A stretch of DNA of 23,881 nucleotides from a virus, in the IMG/VR virus record IMGVR_UViG_3300021085_000006, positions 1 to 23,881 of that record. One strand, written 5' to 3'. Under the pieces are notes generated by a model that ran no database searches, was not told where the DNA came from, and saw nothing but the letters and a program-made list of their open reading frames with translations. A program made the position numbers and the translations under genes. Of the stretch, positions 3,066 to 6,973 are shown one piece after another. Position 1 is the first letter of the stretch. Every line of letters begins with the position of its first letter.

Positions 3066-3405
3066 TACCGTTGATTGCTTCGCTAATGTAGTCCTTTAGC
3101 ATTTCGCGCTCGCGCTTACGGCTTTTGTATTCATCGGACTGCTGGACCCTGTGCCAGTTGGCCCGTAGTTTGCGCCTGTACGCCTCACGTTGCTGAAAGT
3201 AATGCGTCTCGCACATGACCCAAAAGTCTTTGTTGTATTGCGTTACATCAGGATGAGCTGTAAACGTGCCGCTGTTGTTTATAAAATACTCCTTTTCGAT
3301 GTGATGCGGCCTGTATCTGCTCGCGCACTCAGCGCCGTAGACTTCTGTAATGGCGTAGCGGCGTGAGTCCATCAGATCAAGCCAAAATCTTTCTATATCT
3401 GTCAT
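3022..3405 (-). CDS. Hypothetical protein, basic and helical
   Basis: A 127-residue protein of unknown function. The N-terminal half is aromatic and mixed (ERFWLDLMDSRR; HIEKEYFINN). The second half is a highly charged helix rich in Arg, Lys and Glu, ending in a lysine-rich tail. There is one Cys-His pair (CETHYF) but no recognisable catalytic set. It starts ATGA-overlapped with the PAPS-reductase-like gene and overlaps the NinG-like gene by 44 bp, so it is embedded in the operon. Nucleic-acid binding is possible from its charge, but nothing proves it. Confidence 0.7.
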   Translation of the reverse strand: MTDIERFWLDLMDSRRYAITEVYGAECASRYRPHHIEKEYFINNSGTFTAHPDVTQYNKDFWVMCETHYFQQREAYRRKLRANWHRVQQSDEYKSRKREREMLKDYISEAINGNGKEKDARTTKKEG

Positions 3406-4202
3406 AATCCGCAGTATCCTGAATCACATGACCAATCAGAAAAGTATATTTCTGTTTGTGGTCGGTGCTTTTCGATGTTAGTGTAATTAATTTCGCTTTT
3501 GAATTGGTTGCCAGTGCGTTGTTCCTGCTCTTTAAACCATTGCATTTTATTGGGGTGATCGTCAAACTTTTTGCGTAGTACTAGAGCATTACGGTGAAAG
3601 CATCCGACGCAATTGTTTTGCTGTGCAAATGGTAGCGGTATGTCATCCCAATATTGCACGATTTTATCACGTTTAATACCGTTTTCTATAAGTGGAAAAA
3701 CAGGCTTTTGCCATCCTACTTTACCAAACTGCCGCAACCCGTCCACGCATTTGTCAAGCATATTCTTTGCCCTGCGTTCTTCTCCCTGTCTAAATCCAAT
3801 TTGCATTTCAACGGGTTCGCCGATTGTGTTTTGCCACCAATCAAACATTGGTTTAATCTTCATTTCTGTCGTGCAGTAGCGCGCCATGATATTCGGTAAA
3901 TAGCCGCTTTTTTTGTCAATTATCTGTTCAAACGGTAGGCCAGCAACCCAATGAATTTCCTGTTCAAGATATTGTTCAAGTTCGAGAATAGTTTCTAAAA
4001 TTGTATCCTCTTCAAGCGTACCGATAAACTCGCGGCCAATTTTGTCGCTGGCCATCTTTCGCAGTATTGGGTCAGGGTGTTTACATTTTGCGTCGTCTGT
4101 TGTAACCAAAGCAAAAACAAGGTAGTCACTCGGATAATTTGCCGCGATGTATGCCGACGACTGCCCGCCGCTTACGCTTGTTACCGTCTTCATTTCAGTC
4201 AT
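3402..4202 (-). CDS. PAPS-reductase-like PP-loop enzyme
   Basis: A 266-residue member of the PP-loop ATP pyrophosphatase superfamily, of the PAPS reductase/DndC type. The adenylation loop SGGQSS is at residues 11-16, a variant of SGGxDS. An RYCT-x4-K segment near 109-115 and a G-F-R-x3-E-x-R segment near 138-145 match the substrate and pyrophosphate sites of the superfamily. Two cysteine pairs follow, N-C-V-G-C in the C-terminal third and a terminal C-x4-C, which may hold a metal or an Fe-S cluster. It overlaps the DNA methyltransferase as ATGA, suggesting coupled expression. The substrate is not known: sulfate assimilation, DNA sulfur modification and nucleotide modification are all open. 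Confidence 0.8.
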   Translation of the reverse strand: MTEMKTVTSVSGGQSSAYIAANYPSDYLVFALVTTDDAKCKHPDPILRKMASDKIGREFIGTLEEDTILETILELEQYLEQEIHWVAGLPFEQIIDKKSGYLPNIMARYCTTEMKIKPMFDWWQNTIGEPVEMQIGFRQGEERRAKNMLDKCVDGLRQFGKVGWQKPVFPLIENGIKRDKIVQYWDDIPLPFAQQNNCVGCFHRNALVLRKKFDDHPNKMQWFKEQEQRTGNQFKSEINYTNIEKHRPQTEIYFSDWSCDSGYCGL

Positions 4203-4813
4203 TGCATAGGAATTCTAAGTTGTGATTGATGCTGCTGGAGGCGTTTCTTTGCCGCTTCAAAATAATCAATATCCAATTCGCATCCTACCAAATCAAAGCC
4301 AAGGTTATGGCAGGCAATTGCAATTGAACCGCTTCCAAGGTGCGTGTCGAGTATCCTGTCTCCTTCTTTTGCGTAGTTCATTAGCAGCCATTCGTACAAC
4401 TTGACAGGCTTTTGTGTTGGGTGTATTCTTTTGTCGGTTTGCTTGCCGCGATGATACCGAAAAAACCTTACTGCAGTTTTGAATGTGGTATAACATAATT
4501 CTGCATCAGCAAAAGAAAAGCCGTCATTTTGTTTATCCCATATCACCCAACAGGTAGAGTTTTTTCTAATTTTTGACATGAAATTATTTGCGCCCCATAT
4601 CATTTGATTTTCACTAACTCTTTGCAGCTCTTTAAAGTATTGTTCGCTCGGCGCATAGCTATCCCAGTTTTTCACTTCATGCTTGCTGCCACTCCAATTA
4701 TTCTTACCGTCCATACCTAACCCGTAAGGCGGGTCGACAATAGCCAACTCGAAAGCGTTGTCTTCGCACGTTGCAAGGTATTCCATGCAGTCGATGTTGT
4801 GAAGCTCAATCAT
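4199..4813 (-). CDS. DNA (adenine-N6 type) methyltransferase
   Basis: A 204-residue S-adenosylmethionine-dependent DNA methyltransferase. Motif IV, DPPYG, is at residues 27-31. HPTQKP is at 131-136. The AdoMet-binding motif follows as DTHLGSGS at 156-163, so catalytic region precedes AdoMet region, the beta-class order. DPPY points to N6-adenine, though N4-cytosine cannot be excluded. The short middle gives little room for a target-recognition domain, as in orphan phage enzymes. No restriction partner is adjacent. It overlaps its neighbours by 8 bp (upstream) and 4 bp (downstream). Probable roles are protection from host restriction or marking phage DNA. Confidence 0.92.
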   Translation of the reverse strand: MIELHNIDCMEYLATCEDNAFELAIVDPPYGLGMDGKNNWSGSKHEVKNWDSYAPSEQYFKELQRVSENQMIWGANNFMSKIRKNSTCWVIWDKQNDGFSFADAELCYTTFKTAVRFFRYHRGKQTDKRIHPTQKPVKLYEWLLMNYAKEGDRILDTHLGSGSIAIACHNLGFDLVGCELDIDYFEAAKKRLQQHQSQLRIPMQ

Positions 4814-5513
4814 GGCTTTGCTTCTGTCGTTCGTCCATCTCCTGCCGCTCTGTGTACGTTAAGCGGTTCTCTCCTGCCATCCAATCGGCTGCATGCACCC
4901 TAGACGCTATCGGATTCACTTCAGTGGCGTATTCAGGCTGTAAATGCCTCATCGCTTCCTGCTGCATCCGTTCAGCGTCTTTACGTTCGTTCTCGCGTAT
5001 GGTTTGAATAACAGGCTGCTTTAGTTGGTCGTATTTGGTAAAGCAATCCACAAACTGCGCCAATTTTAAGCGTTCGTAGTACGGCCCAAAGCTTTCTTTG
5101 GCCATCATGTACAAGCAAAGCCGCCAGTCTTCAAGCGTGAAGGCCGGGAACTGCTGTACAAGCTCATTCACGGTTAGCGCGATGTGCGCCGGCTCGCTCA
5201 GTGTCTTATTTGCGTCTATAAAGTCCACGCAGCGGCTGATCATGCCAGCAAGTGCCGCACGGGTTGCCCCTTCGTTTACTTTCAACGCCGTTTTCACGTT
5301 TGTGCCTTCAAAGCACTGGGCCACCGTCAGGCTCGATACGTCCAGTTCTTGCAAATTCTGCAAGCTTCTCTCTGTTGACGTCTGTTTTAAGGTTTGCCGC
5401 TCTGCTGGCGTTAGATCGGCCGCCTGCGCGCTGTTTAAAAACAAGGCCTTTGTAGGTGTTTGCGATTGCTCGATGGATTGCGTCGATTGCATCGCTTTCG
5501 GTTTGGTATTCAT
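4806..5513 (-). CDS. Possible helicase loader, DUF6633-like
   Basis: A 235-residue alpha-helical protein. The middle (residues 70-165) contains a segment like AFTLEDWRLCLYMMAKESFG-PYYERL, which resembles the core of DUF6633-type proteins of Bacteroidota phages that commonly follow a replication initiator. A helicase-loading role is inferred from that position and is not proven. The N-terminal 25 residues are Gln/Thr/Ser rich. The start overlaps the initiator gene by 206 bp in another frame, unusually long. The ATG at 5513 has an A-rich leader (ACAAAATG). A SLQNLQE segment before the conserved core suggests that at least residues from about 50 onward are real. The 3' end overlaps the methyltransferase by 8 bp. 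Confidence 0.75.
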   Translation of the reverse strand: MNTKPKAMQSTQSIEQSQTPTKALFLNSAQAADLTPAERQTLKQTSTERSLQNLQELDVSSLTVAQCFEGTNVKTALKVNEGATRAALAGMISRCVDFIDANKTLSEPAHIALTVNELVQQFPAFTLEDWRLCLYMMAKESFGPYYERLKLAQFVDCFTKYDQLKQPVIQTIRENERKDAERMQQEAMRHLQPEYATEVNPIASRVHAADWMAGENRLTYTERQEMDERQKQSHD

Positions 5514-6039
5514 TTTGTAATTGGATCAGTGCCCTTTGTTCACTTTTGGGCGATTTGTATTTGAAACGCTGCTCTGTTTTCTTGTATTCCAGCCACTCGG
5601 ACCACGCGGCAGAAAAGGCGTCTGTTTGCCATGGAAGGACTACAGAAAAATTTTCTTCCTTGTTTTGTAGTGTTTTAGTAATTTGTTTTGTAAGTTGATT
5701 AGTACGTGTCCGTTTGCGCCCACCCCCCTGGCTGTTTGCACCCACCCCCCTGTCCGTTTGCGCCCACCCTAAAGTCCGTTTGTGCCCACCCTGTCCGTTT
5801 GCAACCACCCCCCTCTTGAGGTGGCCGCTTTGAATCAGTCTGTAAATAATCTTACGGGTACGGTCTTCGCTTATGCCGATCGCCTCGGCAAGTTTGGCGT
5901 TGGTCATAAAGCACGCTTTGCCATTTTCCGCGAAGCTGGCGACCTCAGCCAACAGAATACGATCCATTGGCGCGAGGTCCAGCGTCCAAATCTCTAGCGG
6001 TATCCAAATGCCGGTGCGACTACCGTGGGCGCTTTTCAT
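5308..6039 (-). CDS. Replication initiator, lambda-O-like organisation
   Basis: A 243-residue protein. Residues about 10-72 form a winged helix: GIWIPLEIW start, TNAKLAEAIGISEDRTRKII recognition helix, then LIQSGHLKRG wing. Residues 76-110 are a Gly/Arg/Asn linker encoded by five DNA repeats, followed by an Asn/Lys/Thr-rich stretch encoded by AT-rich DNA. From about 135 a helical domain (FSAAWSEWLEYKK onward, with KSPKSEQRAL) resembles C-terminal domains of phage initiators that contact helicase or loader. The start at 6039 is chosen because it overlaps the HTH gene by only 20 bp and begins the conserved part. An ATG at 6090 would overlap much more. The 3' 206 bp also encode the start of the next gene. 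Confidence 0.85.
   Translation of the reverse strand: MKSAHGSRTGIWIPLEIWTLDLAPMDRILLAEVASFAENGKACFMTNAKLAEAIGISEDRTRKIIYRLIQSGHLKRGVVANGQGGHKRTLGWAQTDRGVGANSQGGGRKRTRTNQLTKQITKTLQNKEENFSVVLPWQTDAFSAAWSEWLEYKKTEQRFKYKSPKSEQRALIQLQNEYQTESDAIDAIHRAIANTYKGLVFKQRAGGRSNASRAANLKTDVNREKLAEFARTGRIEPDGGPVL
5639..5704. other. AT-rich stretch beside the iterons; candidate unwinding element
   Basis: These 66 bases contain only 16 G or C (about 76% AT by hand count), clearly richer in AT than their surroundings. They directly follow the iterons in the initiator reading direction and encode the Asn/Gln/Lys/Thr-rich linker. In lambda-type origins an AT-rich stretch next to the O-binding repeats is where the strands first open. 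The role here is inferred from that arrangement. Confidence 0.6.
5708..5814 (-). repeat. Five iterons inside the initiator gene; candidate replication origin
   Basis: Five direct repeats on the plus strand share the core GTCCGTTTGCGCCCACCC. They start at 5708, 5730, 5752, 5774 and 5793; three extend to 22 bp with a CCCCCCT end and two are 19 bp. Spacing is 22, 22, 22 and 19 bp, near two helical turns. Since 22 is not a multiple of three, the same DNA is read in all three frames (encoding GANS, AQTD or HKR-type segments), so the DNA, not the peptide, is conserved. This is how lambda ori sits within gene O. Confidence 0.85.
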
Positions 6040-6247: not shown

Positions 6248-6395
6248 ATTCAATTTTAATTTCATGCTTTATGTGTTTTGCGCGTAGGTCATCCACGTAC
6301 CTCTCAAAGCTGCCGTAGTTGTCGAATGCCACGCGCGTTTTTTGCTGCGGTAAGCTTACTACATATCGCAGGCTACCACTTTGCACCGCCTCCAT
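6204..6395 (-). CDS. Small hypothetical protein in the replication operon
   Basis: A 63-residue product with alternating beta-like segments (LRYVVSLP, HEIKIEYDERQRVYTATVG) and one short helix (FERYVDDLRAK). It resembles a compact alpha/beta protein, but I do not recognise a family. It overlaps the DUF3127-like gene by 23 bp and the HTH gene by 44 bp with the chosen starts. Its ATG at 6395 is the only strong start. Co-transcription with DNA replication genes is the only functional hint. Confidence 0.65.
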   Translation of the reverse strand: MEAVQSGSLRYVVSLPQQKTRVAFDNYGSFERYVDDLRAKHIKHEIKIEYDERQRVYTATVGK

Positions 6396-6714
6396 TGCTT
6401 GCAGGTTGTTCTGTTGGTGCTGGCTGACCTTCTACTACTTCGTAGCTCCATGGAGAGAGCGACATGAAGGCCCGAAATTGACCGGTTTCCGTGTTCTCCC
6501 ATTCACGGCCTCGGACGTTGCAACGCGCTTTGATCGTCTTACCTTCAGGCAATGCCACGGCCTCATCTACGTCGTCTTTAAGGAACTCCAGCGCCATAAG
6601 CTGCGGATATTTCCCATCTTGGACTTCTACGTGTACTTCGCACTTTCTGAAGCCACTAGGAAACTCCTGCGGCTTGCATACTCGCTTTATAACTCCCTCA
6701 ATTACTAATTCCAT
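6373..6714 (-). CDS. DUF3127-like single-stranded-DNA-binding-type protein
   Basis: A 113-residue protein from the ATG at 6714, which has an A-rich leader (AAGAAAAATGG). An upstream in-frame ATG at 6765 lies inside the previous gene and is rejected. The beta-strand pattern of the first 90 residues (LVIEGVIKRV, RKCEVHVEVQ, ALEFLKDD, KARCNVRGREWE, FMSLSPWSYEV) fits an OB-fold. The sequence strongly recalls DUF3127, a family found mainly in Bacteroidota and their phages. The last 20 residues are a low-complexity Pro/Gln/Gly tail like the flexible tail of SSB proteins. Probable role: coating single-stranded DNA during replication or recombination. The DNA-binding claim is inference from fold and context. 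Confidence 0.8.
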   Translation of the reverse strand: MELVIEGVIKRVCKPQEFPSGFRKCEVHVEVQDGKYPQLMALEFLKDDVDEAVALPEGKTIKARCNVRGREWENTETGQFRAFMSLSPWSYEVVEGQPAPTEQPASNGGGAKW

Positions 6715-6973
6715 TTTTCTTATATGATTTATTAAATTCTGTTTGTGACCAATTCGGCATATCAATCGCCCTCAGTTGGTTTAATCGTAACCGCTCAAAT
6801 ATCTCACGCCAGCGAATCGGCGTAGGTTCTGTAAATATTATTTCGTCTTCTAGTCCTTCGTCGTCGTCTTTCATTGTCGACGTGCTGAGTAGGTGCAAGG
6901 CATAATCTCGCAAATCGTCGGTGTGATCCGCTTGCACTTGCTCCAGCTGCTCAAAGAACTCATCTGCGTTCAT
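6698..6973 (-). CDS. Acidic hypothetical protein
   Basis: A 91-residue protein with a strongly acidic first half (EFFEQLEQVQADHTDDLRD; KDDDEGLEDE) and a more basic end. The middle, IRWREIFERLRLNQLRAI, is an amphipathic helix. No family is recognised. The start overlaps the annealing-type gene as ATGA and the end overlaps the DUF3127 gene by 17 bp, so it belongs to the same coupled series. An acidic partner of a DNA-binding neighbour is conceivable but unproven. Confidence 0.65.
   Translation of the reverse strand: MNADEFFEQLEQVQADHTDDLRDYALHLLSTSTMKDDDEGLEDEIIFTEPTPIRWREIFERLRLNQLRAIDMPNWSQTEFNKSYKKNGISN

Follow-up and report, generated by a model that had tools for sequence, protein, structure and literature searches.

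The stretch of viral DNA analysed here (the window) spans the whole 23,881 bases of the IMG/VR virus record IMGVR_UViG_3300021085_000006. Its ends carry the terminase and portal genes, which lie side by side in the related contig G008, and its gene order recurs in contig G006, where the circle is opened at another point. Because the gene order of these two contigs closes the circle, the record appears to represent a circularly permuted and almost entire genome of approximately 24 kb, opened between terminase and portal. An early module on the minus strand holds both a gene for a 243-aa replication initiator (5308..6039; ATG at 6039, stop at 5308) and a gene for a predicted single-stranded DNA-binding protein (6373..6765), the latter recognized by profile matches to DUF3127/PHROG 4932. 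The initiator matches several PHROG replication initiation families (best 5.8e-10), and neither a helicase gene nor a recognized loader gene was found in the window. The DUF3127 and BT4734-like domains encoded in the window, together with matches of the gene downstream of the initiator that are confined to Bacteroides, Phocaeicola, and Elizabethkingia phages, indicate that the host is probably a member of the Bacteroidota. Prophage relatives were absent from 296 sampled Bacteroidota genomes, except for one distant match in a Belliella assembly.

The initiator is predicted to consist of two folded domains joined by a disordered linker. Its N-terminal part (residues 8-76; 5812..6018, minus strand) is a predicted DNA-binding winged helix of the HTH_36/DnaD_N-like type, in which HTH_36 (PF13730) matches residues 22-74 with 35.3 bits (cut-off 25, E 1e-8), DnaD_N stays under its cut-off (24.1 bits against 27; 4e-5), and AlphaFold places helices at residues 15-70. 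PF04492 (Phage_rep_O) showed no Pfam match to the initiator, and RepA_N (PF06970) did not appear among its Pfam matches up to E = 1. The C-terminal helical domain (residues 134-243; 5311..5640, minus strand), with helices at 140-193 and pLDDT of 67-85, is proposed to contact a partner or helicase. Confidence in the model is low outside the two domains (mean pLDDT 55.9). The E-value of its best PDB match falls short of significance: Foldseek returned 2v79 with a probability of 0.99 but an E of 0.26, and the initiator structures 4pt7 and 4pql with E of 0.34-0.43. Residues 80-132 are predicted to be disordered (pLDDT < 50), and since the domains on both sides are predicted to fold, the origin-like DNA described below would lie in the part of the protein able to tolerate it.

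A second gene on the same strand (4806..5513), encoding 235 aa, shares 206 nt with the initiator gene, read in a different frame, and is proposed, by inference, to encode a replication partner. Its start and length are conserved in relatives, and in the Elizabethkingia phage TCUEAP3 its homologue comes directly after a gene annotated for replication initiation. In the overlap (5308-5513), both reading frames are preserved among relatives, and synonymous divergence is reduced from 0.324 to 0.190, which suggests dual coding. The protein has no Pfam match above cut-off, and its low-confidence model (pLDDT 44.7) yields an uninformative fold.

Five 18-bp repeats (iterons) with the consensus GGGTGGGYGCAAACGGAC lie on the minus strand, beginning 229 nt into the initiator gene, just past the winged-helix-coding part. 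A repeat search placed iteron 1 (GGGTGGTTGCAAACGGAC) at 5793..5810, iteron 2 (GGGTGGGCACAAACGGAC) at 5774..5791, iteron 3 (GGGTGGGCGCAAACGGAC) at 5752..5769, iteron 4 (GGGTGGGTGCAAACAGCC) at 5730..5747, and iteron 5 (GGGTGGGCGCAAACGGAC) at 5708..5725, giving start spacings of 19, 22, 22, and 22 in gene order. This is exactly what the earlier note had described from the letters alone, namely, five repeats at intervals of 22, 22, 22, and 19 bp in the linker-coding part of a winged-helix gene, and its remark that the spacing changes the frame at every copy was borne out on recomputation, with each successive iteron lying in a new reading frame. The best iteron triple scored 34, a value reached in none of 1000 dinucleotide shuffles (maximum 28) and in none of 1000 synonymous recodings of the same peptide (maximum 32). 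No iteron of this kind was found outside the initiator gene in the window or in ten related contigs, nor was a second iteron array found elsewhere in the window.

Next to the array lies an AT-rich stretch of 66 bp (5639..5704), a proposed unwinding element, in which we counted exactly the 16 G/C that had been claimed; this is the lowest count of any 66-mer in the window, tied with a stretch at 6678-6700, at the start of the single-stranded DNA-binding protein gene. The AT-rich part contains a second repeat set, TACWAA, in four minus-strand copies 12, 12, and 11 bp apart: TACTAATC (5697..5704), TACAAAAC (5685..5692), TACTAAAA (5673..5680), and again TACAAAAC (5662..5669). At gene offsets 335, 347, 359, and 370, the first three copies share a frame and the fourth is in another. 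Only 0.54 copies were expected, and four copies occurred in none of 2000 recodings. In the relative L018, the equivalent TACTAAACCA repeats, read off the sequence, are spaced 11, 13, and 11 bp apart. Promoters and terminators near the origin were found at chance level only. The cumulative GC skew was monotonic, lacking the turning point near 5700 that had been suggested as a check; it is uninformative here, as all identifiable genes share the same orientation.

Comparison of 17 distinct homologous genes, with a protein identity of 68-90%, revealed selection on the DNA itself. All full-length homologues keep the five iterons at the same positions, and synonymous divergence per comparable pair was 0.064 for the iterons, approximately one fifth of the level seen for the domains on either side (0.327 for the winged-helix part and 0.237 for the C-terminal part). 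These data bear out the expectation that the repeats persist in homologues under DNA-level selection. In the AT-rich part, synonymous divergence was 0.124, dropping to 0.061 in codons 112-128, while the encoded residues are free to change (0.363 over codons 111-133). By these comparisons, the iterons and the AT-rich stretch are conserved as DNA, not as peptide.

Five sister phages (L403-L407), with a related capsid and HTH_36 initiators, displayed a natural exchange of the same region. Their initiators are 49-51% identical to that of the window along almost the full protein length in the four complete genes (L403-L406) and 39% identical in the truncated L407. Their iterons, beginning CGCAAACGAGTGCGY, occupy the same place with a start spacing of exactly 22 and are unrelated to those of the window; the AT-rich repeats of L406 and L407 (AATAAAACAGA, every 12 bp) also differ from the window's, and those of L403-L405 are of the ACTACTATAACA type, every 15 bp, with the motif TAATACA present. 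Across the swap, the winged helices share 46-54% identity and the C-terminal domains 67-88%. The homologue L011 makes the boundaries visible: against L404, its C-terminal domain is 88%, its winged helix 49%, and its linker 26% identical, with unrelated iterons, whereas against the window its winged helix is 96%, its linker 91%, and its C-terminal domain 75% identical, with the same iterons. Because these identities change in blocks, the winged helix and the origin are seen, at the level of sequence comparison, to travel together as a unit while the C-terminal domain stays constant. The winged helix is tied to the iterons in that both change together, and such co-exchange is a prediction of a model in which the winged helix reads the iterons. 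A comparable case is known in staphylococcal plasmids, where pPR9 and pSK41 differ by a block of ~500 bp spanning the N-domain and the origin; the replaced N-domain of pPR9 is HTH_36, and its mini-replicon is functional and replicates autonomously (PMC5703833).

Taken together, conservation in homologues, frozen synonymous sites, and the joint change of iterons and winged helix in sister phages support what the earlier note had proposed, and the locus is very probably a theta-type replication origin embedded in the phage's own initiator gene. In the mechanism we envisage, the N-terminal winged helix would bind the iterons cooperatively, 22 bp being close to two helical turns, and the strain of binding would melt the adjoining AT-rich repeats, at which one exposed strand would be held. 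The C-terminal domain, perhaps with the downstream gene product, may then recruit the host helicase or primase, and the linker would serve as a disordered tether that tolerates coding for an origin.

Iteron arrays may have regulatory roles in plasmids, and the repeats could accordingly be an operator or a copy-control site through which the initiator regulates its own gene or limits initiation, with the true origin elsewhere; binding of the initiator alone could not discriminate between the two functions. We consider this unlikely, as the array begins 0.2 kb into the gene and is followed by an AT-rich repeat element conserved as DNA, the window offers no other array, and the layout matches that of the lambda origin. 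Slightly less probable still is an origin opened mainly by host DnaA, with the phage protein as a mere accessory. The complement of AATAATACAA in related origins does contain TTGT and TTATT, which are reported DnaA single-strand motifs of the E. coli oriC (PMC10797057), but DnaA boxes are not enriched in the window (14 against 21 expected) and the iterons co-vary with the phage winged helix. That the repeats serve the peptide, as a repetitive protein linker, is hardly credible: the encoded sequence is Gly/Arg-rich and looks repetitive, yet its frames differ between copies, the array is not reproduced by any of the 1000 synonymous recodings, the linker is predicted to be disordered, and the frozen synonymous sites by themselves already refute the idea. 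Equally improbable is a young, functionless tandem duplication by slippage, which would account for the regular spacing but not for copies that are degenerate among themselves and occupy corresponding positions in proteins of only 68-70% identity, nor for the replacement of whole arrays in sister phages, and neither copy loss nor variable copy number was seen among the full-length homologues.

The layout of the embedded origin, our preferred reading, recurs widely among relatives of the initiator. In a survey of 71 representative relatives, in which an array was counted if it exceeded all 50 shuffles and lay in the same gene part, arrays were present in 48, with spacing peaks at 22 and 23 bp. 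Lambda, used as a control, yielded its four annotated iterons with start spacings of 20, 24, and 23. More than one reading frame is used by 46 of the 48 related arrays and by the lambda iterons as well, so the disregard of the reading frame that the earlier note had singled out is true of the window but not special to it. The same layout with other iterons was found in phages of Pseudomonas, Lysinibacillus, Oceanospirillum, Fusobacterium, Lactobacillus, Butyrivibrio, and Erysipelothrix, whose initiator genes are often followed by a gene annotated as a DnaC-like loader or a DnaB-like helicase.

Many of these origins share a short element, TAATACA, following the iterons. It was present in 33 of 58 origins, compared with 2.5 expected from shuffles and 7.8 from synonymous recoding, in loci that are homologous and hence not independent samples; its reverse complement occurred in none of the 58. 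Its density was 8.8 per kb in the origins and 0.03 per kb in the rest of these genes, and the copies are spaced 12, 15, or 18 bp apart on one strand only. The element was found at loci L029, L030, L032, L033, L101-L223, L231-L238, and L403-L405, with hosts including Pseudomonas, Lysinibacillus, Fusobacterium, Staphylococcus, Lactobacillus, Enterococcus, and Butyrivibrio, among others. Of ten loci added after this survey, nine belonging to cultured phages or a Firmicutes plasmid and one to a Bacteroidota plasmid, seven carried it, against 2.4 expected. Exact TAATACA is absent from the window's clade.

All 56 TAATACA copies lie in one frame, encoding Asn-Thr, which raises the question of a peptide explanation. 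This was rejected because AAT-ACA is used for 61 of 73 Asn-Thr pairs, far above the 15.2 that the codon usage of the individual genes would predict; in GC-rich genes, AAT makes up 86% of Asn codons in the origin part and 31% elsewhere. We also considered identity with the DnaA-trio, as TARTAATAC reads as 3'-RAT-5' triplets; it is not claimed because, relative to the flanking double-stranded sites, the triplets are on the strand opposite to that in the B. subtilis layout (PMC10201434). The element is likely to be a shared one for opening or loading. On balance, we lean slightly toward a broader view, in which a strand-specific AT-rich element beside the iterons (TAATACA-type, mostly every 12 or 15 bp, or TACWAA in the window's clade) is common to HTH_36 embedded origins from at least four host phyla and is conserved as DNA despite being coding, while the iterons differ by family; these replicons would then have in common a conserved step in which a single strand is read, by the initiator C-domain or by host DnaA, helicase, or primase. 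No description of the TAATACA element was found in the open-access literature. It is a potentially new part, apparently undescribed and common to embedded origins across phyla, and with this comparison the long-standing question of which factor reads the melted strand at such origins becomes testable by synonymous mutation.

An origin inside an initiator gene is a known kind, exemplified by lambda, the RepA_N plasmids, and pPR9 Rep, and is not new in itself; the window origin is therefore a further case. Origins inside initiator genes also occur in several Gram-positive phages. In lambda O, iterons in the middle of the gene precede an AT-rich tract, the N-terminal part binds DNA, and the C-terminal part contacts a partner (PMC7466680). 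The window resembles this origin, with its four 18-bp iterons, in layout, and the label lambda-like in the earlier note is apt to that extent; it does not extend to the protein, since the N-domain of lambda O is PF04492 (5.7e-36) and that of the window PF13730, whose nearest kin are HTH_36/DnaD-like and include pPR9 Rep. The window further differs in having five iterons of unrelated sequence at a mostly exact 22-bp spacing, no recognizable lambda P, and a downstream gene overlapping the initiator by 206 nt. A scan for lambda O relatives, meant for a wider test, returned near-identical copies only.

In pSK41, Rep boxes inside rep are bound by an N-terminal winged helix, and in pSK41 and pPR9 the origin-encoded linker is dispensable as protein and the architecture is DnaD-like (PMC5703833). 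Unlike the window, the RepA_N plasmids are Firmicutes plasmids with antisense-RNA copy control, and pSK41 has a PF06970 N-domain; pPR9 Rep is alike in carrying an HTH_36 N-domain in a working plasmid initiator. The Pseudomonas phages Skulduggery and HU1 and the Lysinibacillus phage vB_LspM-01 share with the window HTH_36, the iteron position (spacing 20-24 bp), and the adjoining AT-rich DNA, but their iterons are unrelated, TAATACA often stands where the window has TACWAA, and a DnaC-like loader or DnaB-like helicase gene often follows. RK2 oriV (13-mers) and F oriS (8-mers) similarly combine iterons with a shorter repeat set in an AT-rich region, and in RK2, TrfA holds one strand of that region (PMC4081077); their initiators, TrfA and RepE, are not HTH_36 proteins, and the 13-mers and 8-mers differ in sequence from the window repeats. 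The open-access literature search found no published origin of this kind for a Bacteroidota phage, in agreement with the earlier note. The window offers a precise predicted origin and a natural cassette swap for a poorly studied, apparently Bacteroidota-infecting phage group, directly testable in a plasmid.

Elsewhere in the window, a PAPS-reductase-like gene (PHROG 424) and a DNA methyltransferase gene lie at 3402-4813, between the proposed partner gene of the initiator and NinG. The former was not found in the related contigs G003, G006, and G008, and the latter is missing in two of the three; because of these absences, both genes look like variable cargo. The other AT-rich stretch (6678-6765), at the start of the predicted single-stranded DNA-binding protein gene, has 16 G/C in 66 bp and is without iterons.
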